64,000 nucleotides of DNA from Acidimicrobiia bacterium. Its GTDB lineage: Bacteria; Actinomycetota; Acidimicrobiia; Acidimicrobiales; Poriferisodalaceae. A program made the position numbers and the translations under genes. The notes under the pieces are model-generated. The model saw only the letters and a program-made list of their open reading frames with translations. It made no database searches and was not told the origin of the DNA. Where the stretch lies: the NCBI GenBank assembly GCA_022822525.1, contig JAJEBN010000099.1, forward strand, positions 1 to 64,000. Reading direction: 5' to 3'. Every line of letters begins with the position of its first letter. Position 1 is the first letter of the stretch. Shown piece by piece: positions 41,553 through 61,241 of the stretch.

Positions 41553-44255
41553 TCAGTGCGCTGCTGAGGACCAGGGGTCGGCGCTGTCGGTGGCCAAGCC
41601 GTAACGCTTGATCGCTTCCGCTGCCGCAGTCGAGTCGATCTCGCCCAGCTCGGCGAGCCGCCACAGAACGGCGACCGTGATGTGCTCGGCGGTGATCTCG
41701 AAGTGCTCCCGCAGGCGGCTGCGGGTGTCGCTGCGCCCGAATCCGTCGGTGCCCAGCGACGTGTAGTCGCGGCCGATCCAGCGCGACACCTGGTCGGGCA
41801 CGGCCCGCATGAAGTCGGTCACTGCGATGACGGGTCCGGTGCCGTCGGCCAGCTGGCGGGTGACGAAGGGCACCTGTTGCGGTTCGTCGGGATGCAGCGT
41901 GTTCCATCGCTCGCACGACAGGGCTTCCTCGCGCAGCGACTTGTACGAGGTGGCGCTCCACAGGTCGACCGCGACGTCATGCTCGGCGGCCAGCAGGTCA
42001 GCCGCCGCCCGGGCGGCGCCCTGTGCCGAACCCGAGAACAGGATCGTGCCCCCGTGCGCGCGGCCCAACGGAGCGGGCGCATAGCGGTACAGCCCGGCCA
42101 GGAGATCTTCGACCGCGAGGTCATCGGGCTCGGGCGGCTGGACGTAGTTCTCGTTGTAGATCGTCAGGTAGTAGAAGATGTCCTCGCCCACGCCGTACAT
42201 GCGCCGGATCCCGTCGCGCACGATCGCCGCAAGCTCGTAGGCAAACGCGGGGTCGTAGGCCTGGCACGGCGGCACGACCGAGGCCAGCAGCGGTGAATGC
42301 CCGTCCTGGTGCTGGAGGCCTTCGCCCATCAGGGTGGTGCGGCCCGCGGTGGCACCCATCAGGAAGCCGCGGCCGCGCATGTCGGCCAGGGCCCAGATCA
42401 TGTCGCCCACTCGCTGGAATCCGAACATCGAATAGAAGGTGTAGAAGGGAACCATCGGCACGCCGCGGCTGGCATAGGACGTCGCAGCAGCGGTGAAGCT
42501 GGCCAGCGCGCCTGCTTCGGTGATGCCCTCTTCGAGGATCTGGCCGTCGATGTGCTCGGTGTAGGACAGCAGCAGGTCGTGGTCGACCGGCTCGTAGAGC
42601 TGTCCCTGGCTGGCGTAGATGCCCAGCTCGCGGAACAGCGAGTCCATCCCGAACGTGCGGGCCTCGTCGGGAATGATCGGCACCACCCGATCGCCGAATC
42701 CTGGCTCGCGTGTCATGGCGCGCAGCATCCGGGTGAACGCCATGGTGGTCGACACCGCCATCGCGCCCGAACCGGCGGCGAATTCCTCAAACGGCTTCGA
42801 GCTGGGCATGGGCAGGCTCTTGCGGCACCAGTTGCGGATGCGCTTGGGCAGCGGGCCGTTGAGTGCCTTGCGCCTGGCCATCAGGTACTCGTGCTCGGCG
42901 CTGCCCGGTTCGGGTCGGCAGTACGGCGGATCGTCGGGATCGAAATCGGTGTCGATCTCCTCATGGAGGCGCAGCCGGTTGCGGATCGTCATGAGCTGGG
43001 TGCGATTCAGCTTCTTGATCTGGTGCGTGGCGTTGCGGGCTTCGAGATCAGGGCCCAGCGACCATCCCTTGACGGTCTTGGTCAGGATGACTGTCGGGCT
43101 GCCCTCGTGCTCCACGGCCGCCTGGTAGGCCGCATAGAGCTTCTTGTAGTCGTGGCCGCCGCGGGGCAGCGTCTGCAGCTCCTCGTCGGAGAGGTGTTGG
43201 ACCATCTCCCGCAGCCGGGGATCGGGGCCGAAGAATCGCTCACGGATGTACTGCCCGCTCTCCACCGAGTAGCGCTGGTACTCGCCGTCGACGGTCTCGT
43301 TCATCTTGTTGAGCAGCACGCCGTCGCGGTCCCGGGCCAGCAGCTCGTCCCAGCGTCCGCCCCAGATCACCTTGATGACGTTCCAGCCTGAGCCGCGGAA
43401 GTTGGCCTCGAGCTCCTGGATGATCTTGCCGTTGCCGCGCACGGGACCGTCGAGCCGCTGCAGGTTGCAGTTGACGACGAAGATGAGGTTGTCGAGCCGT
43501 TCGCGGGCCGCGAGGTGCAGCGCCCCGAGCGTCTCGGGTTCGTCGGTCTCGCCGTCGCCGACGAAACACCACACCTTGGATGCCGCCGTGTTGTCGATGC
43601 GACGGTTGTGCAGGTACCGGTTGAAGCGGGCGTGGTAGATCGCCATGATCGGGCCGAGTCCCATGGACACCGTCGGGAACTCCCAGAATTCGGGCATGAG
43701 ACGGGGGTGGGGATACGACGACAGCCCGGTGCGCCCGATCTCGCGGCGGAAGTGCTCGAGGTCGGTGTCGTCGAGGCGGCCCTCGAGGTAGGCCCGTGCG
43801 TAGATGCCCGGCGCAGCATGGCCCTGGATGTAGATGTGGTCGCCGGGCTCGCCGTCGTCCTTGCCGCGCCAGAAGTGGTTGAAGCCCACGTCGTACAGCG
43901 CCGCTGAGCTGGCGAAGGTGGACAGGTGTCCGCCGATGCCGTCGGCCCACGAGTTGGCATGGGTCACCATCGCGACGGCGTTCCAGCGGATGAAGGCCCG
44001 CAGGCGCTTCTCGATGTCGTCGTCGCCGGGGAACCACGGCTCGTGCTCTGGGGCGATGGTGTTGATGTACGGCGTCGAGACGGTGGCGGGAAAATCGACC
44101 TGCAGTTGGCGGGCCTTGGACATGAGCCGCCGGATGAGAAAGCGCGCCCGGTTCTTGCCCCGCTCCTCGACGACTGCGGCGAAGGACTGCAGCCAGTCGT
44201 CGGTCTCGTCGGGGTCGATGTCGGGAATCTGCTCATGCAGCCCGTCGAACAGCAT
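41553..44255 (-). CDS. aceE: Pyruvate dehydrogenase E1 component, homodimeric type
   Basis: 900 aa; GDGETDEPETLGALHLAARERLDNLIFVVNCNLQRLDGPVRGNGKIIQELE, TPYINTIAPEHEPWFPGDDDIEKRLR. Confidence 0.95.
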   Translation of the reverse strand: MLFDGLHEQIPDIDPDETDDWLQSFAAVVEERGKNRARFLIRRLMSKARQLQVDFPATVSTPYINTIAPEHEPWFPGDDDIEKRLRAFIRWNAVAMVTHANSWADGIGGHLSTFASSAALYDVGFNHFWRGKDDGEPGDHIYIQGHAAPGIYARAYLEGRLDDTDLEHFRREIGRTGLSSYPHPRLMPEFWEFPTVSMGLGPIMAIYHARFNRYLHNRRIDNTAASKVWCFVGDGETDEPETLGALHLAARERLDNLIFVVNCNLQRLDGPVRGNGKIIQELEANFRGSGWNVIKVIWGGRWDELLARDRDGVLLNKMNETVDGEYQRYSVESGQYIRERFFGPDPRLREMVQHLSDEELQTLPRGGHDYKKLYAAYQAAVEHEGSPTVILTKTVKGWSLGPDLEARNATHQIKKLNRTQLMTIRNRLRLHEEIDTDFDPDDPPYCRPEPGSAEHEYLMARRKALNGPLPKRIRNWCRKSLPMPSSKPFEEFAAGSGAMAVSTTMAFTRMLRAMTREPGFGDRVVPIIPDEARTFGMDSLFRELGIYASQGQLYEPVDHDLLLSYTEHIDGQILEEGITEAGALASFTAAATSYASRGVPMVPFYTFYSMFGFQRVGDMIWALADMRGRGFLMGATAGRTTLMGEGLQHQDGHSPLLASVVPPCQAYDPAFAYELAAIVRDGIRRMYGVGEDIFYYLTIYNENYVQPPEPDDLAVEDLLAGLYRYAPAPLGRAHGGTILFSGSAQGAARAAADLLAAEHDVAVDLWSATSYKSLREEALSCERWNTLHPDEPQQVPFVTRQLADGTGPVIAVTDFMRAVPDQVSRWIGRDYTSLGTDGFGRSDTRSRLREHFEITAEHITVAVLWRLAELGEIDSTAAAEAIKRYGLATDSADPWSSAAH

Positions 44256-44276
44256 GGGTTCTAGTGTCGCACCTAG

Positions 44277-45344
44277 ATGAGCCAGATATCGAACGCGGCA
44301 ACGCGAGAGGTCTTCACCGACGGTTCCTGCCTCGGCAACCCGGGTCCCGGCGGCTGGGCGTATGTCGTCGACGCGGGACCGTGGGAGTGCGGTCACGAAC
44401 CCGCCACGACGAACCAGCGGATGGAGCTCACGGCCGCGGCCCGCGCGGTCGAATCGCTGGACGGACCGTTGCGCATCGTGAGCGACTCCACCTACGTGGT
44501 CAAGTGCTTCACCGACGAGTGGTGGAAGGGCTGGCATCGCCGAAACTGGCTGAACTCCAAGAAGGAACCTGTGGCCAACCGGGATCTGTGGGAGCCGTTC
44601 ATCGACGCTGTGCGGGCACGCGGCGATATCTCCTTCGCCTGGGTGAAAGGCCATGCAGGCCAGCGGCTGAATTCCGCCGCGGACGCCTTGGCGGTGCACG
44701 CGGCAGGCGCCGGTGGGGGCCTGCGAGGCGGCCGATTCGACGACGGCGTGCTCGATCAGCTCGCCGATCCACGATCGGTGCCGGGTGATCCTGGCCCGCA
44801 GGCGGCCGGCGGCCTCGCGACCTCCGGCGAGAGCAGCGAGATCACCGGCCATGGTCTTGCCGTGCTGGGCCACCGCCCGCCCGAGCTCGGCGGCTACAAC
44901 GAGAATCCGATCTCTCGCAGGGTGCTGCGCCAGCTCAGTGACGTGCTGGTCGCCAAGCGTGAGATGCAGCCCGATCTCGTGGTTGCCAGCGGTCTCGGCC
45001 TCGGCGCCGAGACAATCGGCGCCGAGGCAGCGCTCGCGGCCGGAGTGCCCTACGTCGTCGTGCTCGCCTTCGAGGGCCTCGACGCCCGCTGGCCTGCATC
45101 GGCACGTCGCCGTTTCGCCGAACTGCGCCAGCAGGCCATGGGGGAGTTCGTGCTGGCCGCCACGGCACCGGTCGACGGCGAAGCGTTCGGCAAGGCAATG
45201 CGCCGCCGCGACACTTGGTTCATGCGCAATTGCAACGAGGCGCTCCTCGTGCGGCGACCCGATGACCGCACCCTCGCGGACCTCCACCGGCGACTCGAGG
45301 AGGTGTTCGACGGCGATGTCTGGGTGATCGAACCCGGGGACTGA
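44277..45344 (+). CDS. rnhA: RNase HI domain fused to a YpsA/DUF1273-like SLOG domain
   Basis: RNase H catalytic motifs (FTDGSCLGNPGPGGW, MELTAA, SDSTYV, GHAGQRLNSAADALA), then GHRPPELGGYNENPISRRVLRQL...VASGLGLGAETIGAEAALAAGVPYVVVLAF. Confidence 0.85.
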   Translation: MSQISNAATREVFTDGSCLGNPGPGGWAYVVDAGPWECGHEPATTNQRMELTAAARAVESLDGPLRIVSDSTYVVKCFTDEWWKGWHRRNWLNSKKEPVANRDLWEPFIDAVRARGDISFAWVKGHAGQRLNSAADALAVHAAGAGGGLRGGRFDDGVLDQLADPRSVPGDPGPQAAGGLATSGESSEITGHGLAVLGHRPPELGGYNENPISRRVLRQLSDVLVAKREMQPDLVVASGLGLGAETIGAEAALAAGVPYVVVLAFEGLDARWPASARRRFAELRQQAMGEFVLAATAPVDGEAFGKAMRRRDTWFMRNCNEALLVRRPDDRTLADLHRRLEEVFDGDVWVIEPGD

Positions 45345-45387
45345 TCGCCGCGGCGGTGTTCGCGTGGGCTTGCTGGGAGGGCGCCGC

Positions 45388-45851
45388 TCAGGCTGCGTCG
45401 TCGTCGGGGCCGTTCTCGACCAGGGCAGCCAACCGCTCGAGCGTCTTCTCCATATTCTGCACGTTCTTGCGGTGAGCCCCGATGAGCTCGATGCTGCGCG
45501 GCAGCTTCGCCGTTCCCCACTCGAAGGTCTCGCGCACGAGCGTGCAGCCGCCGTCTTGGGGTTCGAGCTCGTAGCGCCAGCGCTGACCTTGCCAGTGCGC
45601 CCAAGCAATCAGGCGATTCTCTTCGAATTCCAGGACGCGGTTCTTCACGGTGTAGCGGATGCCGACGTTGATGCGCATCGAGAACGTGCTGCCGAGCGTG
45701 AGCGGGGCGTTGCTGGTGGTCAGCTTGGCCAACGTCCCCGAGCCGTCGATCTCGCGGTGGCGGCTGGGATCAGTCAGCACGGCGAAGATCTTCTCCGCAG
45801 GAGCGGCAATCAACCTCTCGACGCTGACGAGGCGTTCCTCGCTGCGCTTCA
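45388..45851 (-). CDS. SRPBCC (polyketide cyclase/START-like) family protein
   Basis: VERLIAAPAEKIFAVLTDPSRHREIDGSGTL; GTG start at 45851. Confidence 0.85.
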
Positions 45852-46712: not shown

Positions 46713-48176
46713 ATGGCAGAGGAAGCGATGAACGGCGAGACGAGTGCCCCGGTTCGCTACGACCTCGTGGTAATCGGCGGGGGACCGGCGGGCTACGGAG
46801 CGGCGCTGTATGCCGGGGCCGCGGGCATGAAAGTCGCGCTGGTGGAACGGGACCGGCTGGGCGGAACGTGCCTGCACCGCGGCTGCATACCGGCGAAGGA
46901 ATTGCTGGAGACCGCAGCGGTCTGGCGCACCGTCGGCGATGCAGCCACGTTCGGCGTGAATGTCGCTCCCCCGGAGCTGGACTTCAGCGTTTCGCAGGAC
47001 CGTAAGCAGCGCATCGTGGACGGCCTCGAGGCTGGCGTGAAGGGCCTGCTTCGCCGCCGCAAGGTCACCGTCTTGGAGGGCACCGGTCGGCTGGCGGCAG
47101 ACCGATCCGTCGTCGTGGACAACGACGAGTCAGGCTCGCAGACCCTCCTCGGCGACCATGTTCTGCTTGCGGCTGGCTCGGTGCCCATCACGCTGCCCGG
47201 ATTCGACCGCGACTCCTCGCTGGTCATGACGTCCGATGAGGTCCTGGCGCTGGATGAGATCCCGAGCCGCGTGGCGGTGATAGGCGGCGGTGCCATCGGA
47301 TGCGAATTCGCGTCGATGCTCGCCGACCTGGGTGCGGAGGTGACGGTGCTGGAGTACGCCGGCCAGATCGTCCCCGGGGTCGATACCGACATCGCCAAGG
47401 CGTTGACGCGGGCGTTCTCCAAGCGAGGCATCAAGGTGCTCACCGGATGCCGGGTCACCGGCCACACACCGCTCGAGGGCGGCGGCACGACCGTGCTGTA
47501 CACGACGGGCGAATCCTCCGACGGCGACGATGACTCGGCCGGACTGGACGTGGACGCTGTCGTCGTGTCGGTGGGCCGCAGGCCGTATCCGGACCATCTC
47601 GGGCTCGACGACACCGAAGTCAAGCTGGACGAACGTCGCTTCGTGATCGCCGACGAGCGGTGTCGCACGTCGATGGCCGGTGTCTACGCCGTCGGAGACC
47701 TCATCAACACGCCGCAGCTCGCCCACGTCGGGTTTGCCGAGGCCATCGTCGCCGTGCAGGACATCTTGGGCGAGGAACCCGCGCCGGTGGACTATGCCAA
47801 CGTGCCGTGGGCCATCTACTGCCATCCCGAGGTGGCCTTCGCGGGGCTGTCCGAGACTGCGGCCCGCGAGGCCGGCTACGACGTGGTGACCTCCAAGCAC
47901 CGCTACAGCGGCAACTCGCGCGCCATGATCGTCAACGACACCGAGGGCCTGGTCAAGATCGTGGCTGAGCGCGAGAGCGACGGGACCGCCGGGCGCGTGC
48001 TCGGCGTTCACATGATGGGCCCCTGGGTCACCGAGCAGCTCGGTCAGGGCTACTTGGCGGTCAACTGGGAGGCCACCGTCGCCGAGGTCGCCGCCTTGGT
48101 GCAACCCCATCCGACGCTCTCAGAGCTGTTCGGCGAGACCATGCTGTCGCTCACGGGACGGGGGCTGCACGGATGA
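46713..48176 (+). CDS. lpdA: Dihydrolipoyl dehydrogenase (E3)
   Basis: DLVVIGGGPAGYGAALYA, GGTCLHRGCIPAKELLE redox disulfide, HPHPTLSE-like C-term (QPHPTLSELF). Confidence 0.95.
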   Translation: MAEEAMNGETSAPVRYDLVVIGGGPAGYGAALYAGAAGMKVALVERDRLGGTCLHRGCIPAKELLETAAVWRTVGDAATFGVNVAPPELDFSVSQDRKQRIVDGLEAGVKGLLRRRKVTVLEGTGRLAADRSVVVDNDESGSQTLLGDHVLLAAGSVPITLPGFDRDSSLVMTSDEVLALDEIPSRVAVIGGGAIGCEFASMLADLGAEVTVLEYAGQIVPGVDTDIAKALTRAFSKRGIKVLTGCRVTGHTPLEGGGTTVLYTTGESSDGDDDSAGLDVDAVVVSVGRRPYPDHLGLDDTEVKLDERRFVIADERCRTSMAGVYAVGDLINTPQLAHVGFAEAIVAVQDILGEEPAPVDYANVPWAIYCHPEVAFAGLSETAAREAGYDVVTSKHRYSGNSRAMIVNDTEGLVKIVAERESDGTAGRVLGVHMMGPWVTEQLGQGYLAVNWEATVAEVAALVQPHPTLSELFGETMLSLTGRGLHG

Positions 48177-48215: not shown

Positions 48216-49613
48216 ATGGCTGACCTGGTGCTGCCCCAGCTCGGCGAGACGGTCACCGAGGGAACGATCACCCGCTGGTTCAAGGGTGTGGGCGACTCCA
48301 TCGAGGTGGGCGAGATGCTCTATGAGGTCTCCACCGACAAGGTCGACAGCGAGGTGCCCTCGCCGATGGCTGGCGTCATCTCCGAGATACGCGTGCCCGA
48401 GGGCGAGACGGTGGACGTGGGCACGGTCCTGGCCCTCGTCGAGGTCTCCGAGGGGGCCGAAACGCCGGCGCCGCCCGTCGCAGCCGGTGCAGCCGGCGCA
48501 ACCGAGTCCCGGCCCATGCCGGCACCGCCACCCGAGACGGCCCCCGCCGCTGCGACTCCGCTACCTGCGCCTGCACCTGTCGCCGCGCCGGTGGCCGCGG
48601 CCGCTCCGAACGACAGCGCACCAGATAGGCCGGGATCGCACAACGGCGGCCGCTTGCTGTCACCGGTCGTGAGGCGGCTGGTGCGCGAGCACGACCTTGA
48701 TCCGGCCAGTCTCGTCGCCACCGGCGTGGGCGGCCGAATCACCCGATCCGACGTGCTCAACGCCATCGATGACCAGCAGCGTTCCGCAGCCGCAACGGCC
48801 GCCGCCACAGCACCGCCTGCCGCAGATCGAGTGTCGGCACCCGGCCCGCCTCTGGTGCCGGCGCCCGTCGCAGCCGCCGCTGCCGCCGGATGGACAGACG
48901 GCGATTCCCGCTTCGAGGCCTTCAACAACATTCGACGCCGGACCGGCGAGCACATGGTGCACTCGGTTGCCACGTCTCCCCATGCGCTCACGATTGTCGA
49001 GGTCGACTACGAGAATGTCGAGCAGGTACGCCGTGCACATCGCGAGGCGTGGCGGGCATCGGAAGGCTTCAGCCTCACCTACCTGCCGTTCATCGTGGCG
49101 GCGGTGACCGACGCACTGGGCCACTGGCCGCGGCTGAACGCATCCGTCGAAGAGGGTGGCCTGCGACTGTGGCGGCGCCGCAATGTGGGTGTTGCGGTGG
49201 ATCTCAGCTACGACGGGCTCATCGTGCCGGTGCTGCGCGATGCCGACTCGCTGAGCCTGCGCGGCGTCGCGCGCACGATGAACGAGCTGGCGGGGCGTGC
49301 ACGAGAGAAGCGTCTGACGCCCGATGACATCACCGGCGGCACTTTCACGATCTCCAACAACGGCTCATTCGGCACCTACACCACCGCCGCCATCATCAAC
49401 CAGCCCCAGGTTGCGGTGCTCTCCACCGACGGCGTCGCCCGCCGGCCGGTCGTGGTGACGGATCGGTTCGGCAACGAGAGCATCGTCATCCACTCGGTAG
49501 GCCACCTGGCGATGGGCTGGGATCACCGGGCGTTCGACGGCAGCTATGCCGCCGGCTTTCTGGGGCACGTCCGCCAGATGCTCGAACAGCACGACTGGGG
49601 AGCGGAGCTCTGA
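48216..49613 (+). CDS. 2-oxo acid dehydrogenase dihydrolipoamide acyltransferase (E2)
   Basis: Lipoyl site EVSTDKVDSEVPSP, Pro/Ala linker, E3-binding region LLSPVVRRLVREHDLDPASL, HRAFDGSYAAGFL catalytic motif. Confidence 0.94.
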   Translation: MADLVLPQLGETVTEGTITRWFKGVGDSIEVGEMLYEVSTDKVDSEVPSPMAGVISEIRVPEGETVDVGTVLALVEVSEGAETPAPPVAAGAAGATESRPMPAPPPETAPAAATPLPAPAPVAAPVAAAAPNDSAPDRPGSHNGGRLLSPVVRRLVREHDLDPASLVATGVGGRITRSDVLNAIDDQQRSAAATAAATAPPAADRVSAPGPPLVPAPVAAAAAAGWTDGDSRFEAFNNIRRRTGEHMVHSVATSPHALTIVEVDYENVEQVRRAHREAWRASEGFSLTYLPFIVAAVTDALGHWPRLNASVEEGGLRLWRRRNVGVAVDLSYDGLIVPVLRDADSLSLRGVARTMNELAGRAREKRLTPDDITGGTFTISNNGSFGTYTTAAIINQPQVAVLSTDGVARRPVVVTDRFGNESIVIHSVGHLAMGWDHRAFDGSYAAGFLGHVRQMLEQHDWGAEL

Positions 49614-49618
49614 GGCTG

Positions 49619-51289
49619 GTGCCCACAACGCTGCGAGTGCGCTGGCTGGGTCGGGTTCGTTACGCCGAGGCGCTCGATCTGCAGCGGCGGCTGTTCTCGC
49701 ACAGCAACGACAACTACCTCTTGCTGGTCGAACACGACCACGTATTCACTGCGGGACCGAGCGCGGACGACGCCAACTTGCTGGTCGATCCCGCCGAGGT
49801 CGGTGCCGACTGCGTGCGCATCGACCGCGGCGGTGACTTCACCTATCACGGCCCGGGCCAGCTCGTGGGCTACCCGATCCTCACGCTGCCGGGACGCCGC
49901 GGCGGCGGGCTGGCCGAGACAGCGTCCTACGTGTGCGACCTCGAGCAGGTGCTGATCGACGCGCTGGCAGACCTGGGGCTGGGTGGCTGCGGCCGTCTGC
50001 GCGGGTACCCGGGCGTGTGGATCGACCTCGACGGCGCGCCCCGCAAGCTCGCCGCCATCGGCGTGCGGCTCAGCCGGGGCCGCACCATGCATGGCTTCGC
50101 GCTCAACGTCGACACCGACCTGTCGTGGTTCGAGCGGATCGTTCCCTGCGGCATCAGCGAGTACCCGCCGACGTCGCTGCGGGCGGAAGGCTGCGCGGCG
50201 ATCATGCCCGAGGTGGTCGATGCCGTGGCCCGGCGCGCCGCGGCACGATGGGGCGAGGGGAGCATCGAGCGGGCCGACGTGGCCTGGCGGCACCGGCCGT
50301 CAGACCTCAGCGCCTTCAGCCGGGGTCTGGGCCCCGGCCCCGTTGAAGTCGCCCCGCCGCGCAGCCGGGCGCGACTGACCCAAGCCGGCGTGAACGGCGG
50401 CCTGGACCTTGCCGATCGGAAGCCAGCGTGGCTGCGCGCCCGCATGGATCTCAACGACGGCTACTTGCGACTGCGCCGGGTCATGCGACAGCACGACCTC
50501 GTCACGGTGTGCGAGGAGGCGGGCTGTCCCAACATCTTCGAATGCTGGGGCGCGGGCACAGCGACGTTCATGCTCAACGGGGAGCGGTGCACACGGGCGT
50601 GCGGCTTCTGCCTCGTCGACACCCGCCAGCCCGGCCCGCTCGATCCCGGTGAGCCCCGCCGGGTTGCTGACGCCGTCGCCGAAATGGCGCTCGATCATGC
50701 CGTCGTCACCGCAGTAGCCCGCGACGATCTCGCCGACGGCGGCGCTGGCGCGTTCGCCGAGACCATCACGGCAATCCGGGGACGGTCGCCGGGCACGACG
50801 GTCGAGGTGCTGGTGCCCGACTTCGGCGGCGACGCCCCTTCGCTGCACGCAGTCCTCGATGCGGGTCCGGACATCGTGAACCACAACATCGAGACCGTCG
50901 CCCGCCTGCAACGCGCCGTGCGCCCATCCGCCGGTTACGCCCGCAGCCTCACCCTGCTGGCGCGCAGCGCCTCCGCGGGACACCTCACCAAGTCGGGCAT
51001 CATCGTCGGCATGGGCGAGGACGACGCAGAAGTCGACGCCGTCTTGGCTGACCTTGCTGCGGCAGGAGTGAGCATCGTGACCATCGGCCAGTACCTGCGC
51101 CCCACCAGCCATCACATTCCCGTCGCCCGCTGGGTGCCGCCAGCCTCCTTCGAGAGGTGGCGGAAGGTGGGTGCCGCACTCGGCCTCGCCCACGTCGAAT
51201 CCAGCCCGTTGACCCGCTCGAGCTACCACGCCGCCGAATCGGCCGCCGCCGTGCCGCTCGAAGTGGGCGGCCGGCCCGTCGGGGCATAG
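49619..51289 (+). CDS. lipB-lipA: Octanoyltransferase LipB fused to lipoyl synthase LipA
   Basis: Single 556-aa ORF: LipB (RGGDFTYHGPGQLVGYPIL, KLAAIGVRLSRG, FERIVPCGI) then LipA (CEEAGCPNIFEC, CTRACGFC, SGIIVGMGE, SPLTRSSYHA). Confidence 0.93.
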   Translation: MPTTLRVRWLGRVRYAEALDLQRRLFSHSNDNYLLLVEHDHVFTAGPSADDANLLVDPAEVGADCVRIDRGGDFTYHGPGQLVGYPILTLPGRRGGGLAETASYVCDLEQVLIDALADLGLGGCGRLRGYPGVWIDLDGAPRKLAAIGVRLSRGRTMHGFALNVDTDLSWFERIVPCGISEYPPTSLRAEGCAAIMPEVVDAVARRAAARWGEGSIERADVAWRHRPSDLSAFSRGLGPGPVEVAPPRSRARLTQAGVNGGLDLADRKPAWLRARMDLNDGYLRLRRVMRQHDLVTVCEEAGCPNIFECWGAGTATFMLNGERCTRACGFCLVDTRQPGPLDPGEPRRVADAVAEMALDHAVVTAVARDDLADGGAGAFAETITAIRGRSPGTTVEVLVPDFGGDAPSLHAVLDAGPDIVNHNIETVARLQRAVRPSAGYARSLTLLARSASAGHLTKSGIIVGMGEDDAEVDAVLADLAAAGVSIVTIGQYLRPTSHHIPVARWVPPASFERWRKVGAALGLAHVESSPLTRSSYHAAESAAAVPLEVGGRPVGA

Positions 51290-51320: not shown

Positions 51321-52172
51321 ATGGCCGAGGGCGCGCCCGTGGAAGTTGCGACGGTCCTGTGCCAGTGGGCGACAGGGGGACTGGCCTACCTGTGGGTGAC
51401 GACCCGGCGACGTGAAGTCGGGCTCGGCTACGGCTGGCTGCTGCGCTCGCTGTACGGGGCGATAGCGGTGATCGCTGCTGTCACGGGGTTCGTGTTTCAG
51501 CCGAATGCGGTGCGGGATGCGGCATGCATCGCGGTGGCGCTGTGCGCGGGTGCGGCGCTGGTGCGCTCGGTCCGGCCCGACTCACCGGCCGCGGGCCTCG
51601 GCGAGCCCCATCACGGCAGCCGCAGCGAGAGCGCCGAGCCAGTCGAACCTCGCCCACGCAGGACCATCGAGGGCTTTGACTCCCGCTGGGACTTGGCGGC
51701 CCCGCTCGCCGGCGCGGTAGGTGTCGTTGCTGCGGGTCTCGGTGCCAGCGGCGACATCAACCCGATCCTGCATCTCGCACGTGTCGTCGCCGGTGCTGCG
51801 TTCCTCGGTGTGGTGAGTGACTCGATGCTGCTGGGGCACTGGTACCTGGTGCAGCCGGGGCTGCGCCGTGAACCGCTGCGCGAGCTGGTGCGGCATCTGG
51901 GCGCCGTCTGGCCGGTCGAAGTGGGTTTGCTATTGCTGCCCACCGGCATGATCGCTGTGCTCAACGGCTCGATCAACGACGGCTACGGCGGGCTGCTCGG
52001 CTGGTTCTGGATCGCCTGCGCCGTGTCCACCGTGGCGCTCGCTGCGGTGGCCATGGCTGCGCTGCGAGAGCGCCAGTACGCCGCCGTCATGGCGGCCACC
52101 GGGCTGCTCTACCTGGCGATCCTGACCGGTTTCGGCACCGACCTCGTGGCCCGCCTCACCCTCGCCGGCTGA
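51321..52172 (+). CDS. Multi-TM conserved hypothetical membrane protein
   Basis: Multiple hydrophobic segments, open frame. Confidence 0.65.
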   Translation: MAEGAPVEVATVLCQWATGGLAYLWVTTRRREVGLGYGWLLRSLYGAIAVIAAVTGFVFQPNAVRDAACIAVALCAGAALVRSVRPDSPAAGLGEPHHGSRSESAEPVEPRPRRTIEGFDSRWDLAAPLAGAVGVVAAGLGASGDINPILHLARVVAGAAFLGVVSDSMLLGHWYLVQPGLRREPLRELVRHLGAVWPVEVGLLLLPTGMIAVLNGSINDGYGGLLGWFWIACAVSTVALAAVAMAALRERQYAAVMAATGLLYLAILTGFGTDLVARLTLAG

Positions 52173-59477: not shown

Positions 59478-61241
59478 TCAGGAGATGACGACCACCACGT
59501 CGCCTGCACCCACGGTGTCGCCCGGCTCGACCTTGACCTCGGTGACGGTTCCCGAGCGGTCGGCGTTGATGCTGTTCTCCATCTTCATGGCTTCGAGCAC
59601 CACCACGCCCTCGCCGGTCGTGACCTCTTGGCCGACCTCCACGAGGATCTTGACGATCGTGCCCTGCATGGGCACCGTCACCTGGCCAGTGCCGGCGCCC
59701 GCCGAAGCGCCGCCGCTCGCGCGCCGGGGGCGAGCAGCCGTCGCGGTCGTAGTGGCGGCCGGCGCCGTTTCGGGCACCCACGCGCTCACCGAGAACCGCT
59801 TGCCGTCGACCTCCACCACGACATCTCGCCGGACGCGCGGCCCGGCTTCGCCGTCGGCCGATACCTCCGGCACCGCGTCGGCCTTGCCGCTCACCCCGCT
59901 CAGATCGAGCCGCTCCTCGACCCACTTCGTGCTGTGGATTCCCGCCTGGAAATCCTCCGATGCCATGATCGCCGCGTGCGCAGCGGCTGTCGTCGCGACG
60001 CCGCCGACATGGAGCTCGCCGAGTGCCCGCTGCATGCGGGCGATCGCAGTGGGCCGGTCCGAGCCCCACACGACGAGCTTGCCGATGAGGTTGTCGTAGA
60101 ACTGGCTGACGGTGTCACCTGCCTCGTAGCCGCCGTCCCAGCGAATGCCGAAGCCGTCGGGCACGCGCAGCGCGCTCACCTCTCCGGGCGAGGGCAGGAA
60201 TCGTCCGCCGGCGGGATCCTCGGCGTTGATGCGTGCCTCGATGGCGTGACCGACCGAGGTGATGTCAGATTGGCTGAACGACAGCGGCTCGCCCGCTGCT
60301 ACCCGGATCTGCTCGCGCACCAAGTCGATCCCGGTCACCATCTCGGTGACGGGGTGTTCCACCTGCAGGCGCGTGTTCATCTCGAGGTAGAAGAACTCGC
60401 CGTCCTGGTAGAGGAACTCCACGGTGCCCGCATTCGTGTAGTCGCAGCCGCGTGCCACCGCCACCGCCGCCTCGCCCATCGCCGTGCGGACTTCGTCGTC
60501 GAGCGATGGCGCAGGGCTCTCCTCCACCAGCTTCTGGTGCCGGCGCTGGGCGGAGCAGTCACGCTCGCCCAGCCAGACGGCGTTGCCGTGGTGATCGGCG
60601 ATGACCTGCATCTCGATGTGGCGCGGCCAGGTGAGGTAGCGCTCCATGTAGCACTCGCCGCGCCCGAAGAACGCCTCGGCTTCTCGCTGTGCCGATGACA
60701 GCGCCGCTTCGATCTCGTCGGGCCCGCTGACCACCTTCATGCCGCGGCCCCCGCCCCCGTAGGCCGCCTTGACGGCGATGGGGTAGCCGTGAACGTCGCC
60801 GAAGGCGGCGACCTCGTCCGTCGAGGTGATGACCTCGGTGGTTCCCGGAACACCGGCGACGCCCGAGCGTTCGGCGGCGAGGCGGGCCGAGATCTTGTCG
60901 CCCATCACCTCGATGGCTTCCGGCGGCGGTCCCACGAATGTCACGCCTCTCGAGGTGATCGACCGGGCGAAGTCGGCGTTCTCGGAATAGAAGCCGTAGC
61001 CGGGATGGACCGCATCGGCCCCGCTGCGCTCGATCACATCGAGTATGGCCTCGGTGTTGAGGTAGCTCTCCGCGGCAGTCTGCCCGCCGAGCGCGAACGC
61101 CTCGTCAGCAAGCCGAACGTGCATCGCATTGCGGTCGAGATCGCTGTACACGGCGACCGTGCCGATGCCCAGCTCGCGGCAGGCTCGAATCACGCGTACT
61201 GCGATCTCACCTCGGTTGGCAATGAGGAGCTTGCTGAACAC
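59478..61241 (-). CDS. Acetyl/propionyl-CoA carboxylase biotin carboxylase-BCCP subunit
   Basis: KLLIANRGEIAVRVIRACRELGIGTVAVYSDLD, GGGGRGMKVV, biotinylation motif VVLEAMKMEN. Confidence 0.94.
   Translation of the reverse strand: MFSKLLIANRGEIAVRVIRACRELGIGTVAVYSDLDRNAMHVRLADEAFALGGQTAAESYLNTEAILDVIERSGADAVHPGYGFYSENADFARSITSRGVTFVGPPPEAIEVMGDKISARLAAERSGVAGVPGTTEVITSTDEVAAFGDVHGYPIAVKAAYGGGGRGMKVVSGPDEIEAALSSAQREAEAFFGRGECYMERYLTWPRHIEMQVIADHHGNAVWLGERDCSAQRRHQKLVEESPAPSLDDEVRTAMGEAAVAVARGCDYTNAGTVEFLYQDGEFFYLEMNTRLQVEHPVTEMVTGIDLVREQIRVAAGEPLSFSQSDITSVGHAIEARINAEDPAGGRFLPSPGEVSALRVPDGFGIRWDGGYEAGDTVSQFYDNLIGKLVVWGSDRPTAIARMQRALGELHVGGVATTAAAHAAIMASEDFQAGIHSTKWVEERLDLSGVSGKADAVPEVSADGEAGPRVRRDVVVEVDGKRFSVSAWVPETAPAATTTATAARPRRASGGASAGAGTGQVTVPMQGTIVKILVEVGQEVTTGEGVVVLEAMKMENSINADRSGTVTEVKVEPGDTVGAGDVVVVIS

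Follow-up and report, generated by a model that had tools for sequence, protein, structure and literature searches.

Lipoyl assembly has a central place in aerobic metabolism, and the passage of the octanoylated carrier from the octanoyltransferase LipB to the lipoyl synthase LipA is, to our knowledge, an unsettled question. The window analyzed here, a stretch of 64,000 nucleotides from an Acidimicrobiia bacterium, contains one open frame that appears to encode both enzymes. We asked whether this gene is a genuine fusion, how widespread it is, and whether the connection couples the two activities. From sequence comparison, we consider it very probable that the gene product is a genuine bifunctional octanoyltransferase/lipoyl synthase that carries out both steps of de novo protein lipoylation, and that a single fusion event close to the base of the class gave rise to it. 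Whether the two halves are also functionally coupled is a separate question, and its answer is much more tentative.

Two enzymes in one reading frame

Direct reading of the window revealed a single frame of 556 codons from a GTG at position 49619 to a stop codon ending at 51289 (Table 1). In agreement with the initial annotation, which had described an uninterrupted ORF with a complete octanoyltransferase followed by a complete lipoyl synthase, Pfam assigned LplA-B_cat to residues 15-204 and Radical_SAM to residues 322-478, and NCBIfam models matched both halves. The motifs listed there (Cys and Lys of LipB; CX4CX5C, CX3CX2C, and RSSY of LipA) are all present in the translation. The GTG is probably the true start, since it is located only 5 nt behind the stop codon of the E2 gene (49611-49613) and alignments to relatives, where they extend to the N-terminus, mostly start at residues 1-5. 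Internal start sites from which LipA could be made separately were not enriched (36 of 143 loci vs. 32 in a comparison stretch).

Table 1. Coordinates of the fused gene, its parts, and the genes preceding it
Feature	Position	Strand	Basis
E3 dihydrolipoyl dehydrogenase (TIGR01350), not a substrate	46713..48176	+	upstream, same gene cluster
E2 acyltransferase (SucB_Actino-like), one lipoyl domain, likely substrate	48216..49613	+	profile matches
lipB-lipA fusion gene, 556 aa, GTG start	49619..51289	+	stop-free architecture shared with 143 other loci
LipB (octanoyl-ACP:protein octanoyltransferase) domain, residues about 5-212	49631..50254	+	Pfam, NCBIfam, structure matches, conservation
Inter-domain linker, residues about 213-264	50255..50410	+	weak conservation; 234-243 poorly placed in model
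LipA (lipoyl synthase, radical SAM) domain, residues about 265-542	50411..51244	+	Pfam, NCBIfam, structure matches, conservation

The N-terminal half scored above the curated equivalog cut-offs of two LipB models (PRK14345 of NCBIfam, 176.1 bits vs. 155; TIGR00214, 126.4 bits vs. 83.55) and matched the sequence of the solved LipB of M. tuberculosis (1w66) at an E value of 4e-38. It contains both the RGG..TYHGPG motif and the Cys/Lys dyad of the LipB family: the motif RGGDFTYHGPGQ carries R70 and H77, and K143, H158, and C177 are present, with K143 and C177 as the catalytic dyad. K143 and C177 are invariant across 144 fused proteins, and R70 and H77 are present in all but one, which ends at a contig edge. 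LipB catalysis by such a dyad is an established mechanism (PMC9307952).

For the C-terminal half, the LipA model TIGR00510 of NCBIfam scored 335 bits (equivalog cut-off 310.25), while the LIAS_N model of Pfam alone remained slightly below its cut-off (23.6 vs. 27); the sequence of the solved LipA of M. tuberculosis (5exi) was matched at an E value of 4e-88. The auxiliary-cluster cysteines (C298/C303/C309) and the radical-SAM cysteines (C324/C328/C331) are invariant in all 144 fused proteins. The serines of the C-terminal RSSY motif (R533-S534-S535-Y536) are kept in all fused proteins that have a C-terminus, as is the arginine except for one unread residue; the tyrosine is replaced by H in seven proteins and by F in one.

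We infer from family membership that the LipB half transfers octanoate from the acyl carrier protein (ACP) to the lipoyl domain and that the LipA half inserts sulfur. The chemistry of the fusion is ordinary. The LipB half would take octanoate from the acyl carrier protein as a thioester of Cys177, with Lys143 as its partner, and then place it on the lysine of the lipoyl domain. The LipA half would insert two sulfurs with the help of S-adenosylmethionine, a catalytic [4Fe-4S] cluster, and a sacrificial auxiliary cluster, following the established mechanism of lipoyl synthases (PMC12246082). A search of the source genome yielded no further LipA or LipB proper; one additional ligase-family match (L094) is located within a 217-aa ORF. 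Since a single LipA and a single LipB proper were found there, the fusion must supply both activities.

Distribution and origin of the fusion

The same stop-free LipB-LipA frame was found at 144 loci, the window's own included, by direct reading of the DNA of fetched loci; they belong to the Acidimicrobiia by kinship or label, and some genomes are counted twice because the named and unnamed collections overlap. Searches for the fusion gave a match in 97 of 100 relatives and in 117 of 120 genomes of the class. Named carriers are Acidimicrobiia or broadly labelled actinobacterial MAGs, and one fusion record (L054) is labelled Acidobacteria. Even genomes of about 1 Mb have kept the fusion (L107-L114). 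Judged from these sequences, the fusion of two complete and apparently active enzymes is a class-wide trait of the Acidimicrobiia and far more general than the view from a single window. A frameshift or assembly error joining two genes, which the initial annotation had already considered, is ruled out by these 144 loci together with eight congeners (85-94% identity) in which directly read DNA carries the same open frame; its probability is negligible. An apparent frameshift at one locus of the class (L068), at a reported coverage of 1.25, divides the frame and does not join genes.

Exceptions within the class are minor. One locus (L198) starts at a contig end; another (L119) has LipA alone and reaches the contig end, and a further contig end of the same genome carries a fused piece. 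L125 encodes only a LipB domain, in a 267-aa frame with the Cys motif intact, and no LipA match was found in its 85%-complete genome (G179), a possible case of loss or breakage of the fusion. Further apparent splits ("1 TAG", "1 TGA") were due to stops at the ends of matches, outside the fused frame. Among the loci read, no secure re-splitting of the fusion was found within the class. In one genome (G147), a contig of 5026 bases (C83) carries another lipB/lipA pair, here as separate genes preceded by E2 (L121). Because this pair groups outside the Acidimicrobiia in both the LipA and the LipB tree, we read it as a contaminant contig or a transfer.

In all fetched loci from Actinomycetota outside the class, lipB and lipA were apart wherever both were found, often next to each other. 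Many of these adjacent pairs share one frame with one to three stops in between, a share that may be inflated by the joining of loci in the search. The pairs of Mycobacterium, Nocardia, and Streptomyces agree with the fusion in enzymes, order, and active-site residues, but they are two genes separated by one to three stops, whereas the Acidimicrobiia have one open frame. LipB (1w66) and LipA (5exi/5exj/5exk) of M. tuberculosis are 46-49% identical to the respective halves. LipB and LipA of Escherichia coli likewise represent the same pathway with the same catalytic residues, but their genes are separate, with ybeF in between. A second, independent fusion suggested by the search output (G241, G313) was dismissed after direct reading, which showed stops between the genes. 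Among the annotated matches listed in a plasmid search, lipB and lipA were separate or LipA stood alone.

In a tree of LipA domains, with 40 rows from fused and 38 from separate proteins, the label fused/separate changes once (SH-aLRT 89 for the fused clade). The LipB-domain tree gave two changes in a free search; when the fused rows were constrained to one group, the resulting tree surpassed the free one by 15 log units and was not rejected (p-AU 0.78). Since the LipA-domain tree needs one change only, the most economical explanation of these data is a single fusion at the base of the Acidimicrobiia or close to it; these are quick trees with support below 95, so the exact depth of the event is not firm. 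An already adjacent lipB-lipA pair would have fused once near the base of the class and then been kept. For this class, the gene also offers a clean marker of one such event.

A comparable architecture is described by the curated NCBIfam model NF053790 (LplA_LipA_fuse, 606 positions, bifunctional lipoate--protein ligase/lipoyl synthase), which likewise places an acyl-attachment enzyme before LipA. By its name, the N-terminal part of that family is a ligase of the LplA kind, whereas the protein from Acidimicrobiia has LipB. The fusion matched this model only with its LipA half and below the cut-off (335.2 bits vs. 800). At E ≤ 1e-130, none of 199 Actinomycetota matched the model. The control genome of Bacteroides ihuae gave strong matches at this E value, under the curated cut-off, which hint at an independent origin of a ligase-LipA fusion in Bacteroidota. 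We found no description of a LipB-LipA fusion in the literature searched, a coverage without many subscription papers and the standard lipoate reviews. Automatic annotation in UniProt calls such two-domain proteins "multifunctional fusion protein", and the architecture is therefore probably visible in databases. The fusion of the Acidimicrobiia is real, old, and made of known enzymes, and it seems to be undescribed in the papers searched.

Tether or interface between the two halves

The linker is weakly conserved and variable: the distance between Cys177 and C298 ranges from 84 to 238 aa among fused proteins. Such variation is compatible with a tether and an interface alike. An AlphaFold2 model of the fusion, based on 56 fused sequences, reached a pLDDT of 91.9 and a pTM of 0.92; pLDDT values below 50 were confined to residues 234-243 and the six C-terminal residues. 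In the predicted model, the LipA half resembles 5exk/5exj and the LipB half 1w66. A pTM of this height across two domains implies a defined relative placement. The model thus supports a fixed LipB:LipA arrangement as a prediction, and such an arrangement would be compatible with channelling without proving it. For comparison, we folded the LipB-stop-LipA pair of Cellulomonas (L079), with stops read as glycine, together with 25 relatives, and obtained a pTM of 0.53. The contrast is suggestive only, since the comparison alignment was not matched (26 vs. 56 sequences) and its domains were less confident.

A class-specific domain interface is therefore a prediction of the model. Arg8 in the first LipB strand, invariant in the 56 fused LipB domains and mostly replaced by other residues in the separate set, is a candidate interface residue. 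Covariation between the domains was not enriched (19 of the top 100 pairs vs. 45% expected), but with an effective number of sequences of only 71 this figure carries no weight for or against an interface.

Gene neighborhood, lipoyl acceptors, and coupling

The initial annotation had placed the fusion directly behind its natural substrate genes, E3 and E2. This holds for E2, which is a lipoyl substrate, but not for E3, in which no lipoyl-domain match was found. Of 132 fused loci, 121 have the end of E2 no more than 250 nt upstream, vs. 6 of 32 separate ones; at several more separate-gene loci, E2 is found upstream at a distance of a few kb. Proximity to E2 is thus not confined to the fusion, yet much more regular with it. 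At three loci from MAGs of Acidimicrobiaceae/Acidimicrobiales (L022, L025, L029), E3 ends about 90-110 nt before the fusion, and no E2 was found there. The source genome encodes at least four lipoyl acceptors by motif: the neighboring E2 (STDKV) and, elsewhere, a second E2-sized ORF (ETDKS), a long ORF (ETDKV), and GcvH (ESTKS). Therefore, the substrates of the fusion must include at least three acceptors whose genes are unlinked to it. Substrate channelling, which had been proposed from gene position, is for these reasons weakly supported: the two-domain model fits it, but E2 also neighbors separate genes, and other acceptors are unlinked.

Two readings of the fusion have to be weighed. The loss of a stop or junction could have joined two co-transcribed genes, with the halves acting independently and the fusion persisting through guaranteed equal expression. 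The adjacent separate genes of other Actinomycetota, often in one frame and a single stop apart, agree with this account, as do the variable linker and the unlinked acceptors; the high pTM of the two-domain model and the lack of secure splitting among the class loci read speak against it, and we give it slightly better than an even chance. Alternatively, a class-specific LipB:LipA interface could hand the octanoylated lipoyl domain from site to site without full release. The fixation of the fusion across the class, the difference in pTM, and the invariant Arg8 point in its direction. However, the AlphaFold2 comparison was not depth-matched, and linker length varies. We therefore hold such coupling to be possible but clearly short of an even chance, and channelling between the sites is offered as a hypothesis. 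If it were true, Acidimicrobiia would lipoylate their dehydrogenases via one two-site enzyme. A one-chain LipB-LipA kept class-wide represents a ready system for studying the structure and kinetics of the hand-over.

Three further features were observed in the window. A Biotin_lipoyl domain at 59484-59684 on the minus strand has the AMKM biotin motif of a carboxylase-type carrier and was rejected as a lipoyl acceptor. Close to the E3-E2-lipBA cluster, a long ORF on the minus strand (41553-45608) resembles AceE-type pyruvate dehydrogenase E1 in its C-terminal two thirds; several relatives have homologues of it upstream, likewise on the opposite strand. Directly downstream of the fusion, a 283-aa ORF on the plus strand (51321-52172) is hydrophobic in stretches and had no NCBIfam match. 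It is retained at this position in several relatives.
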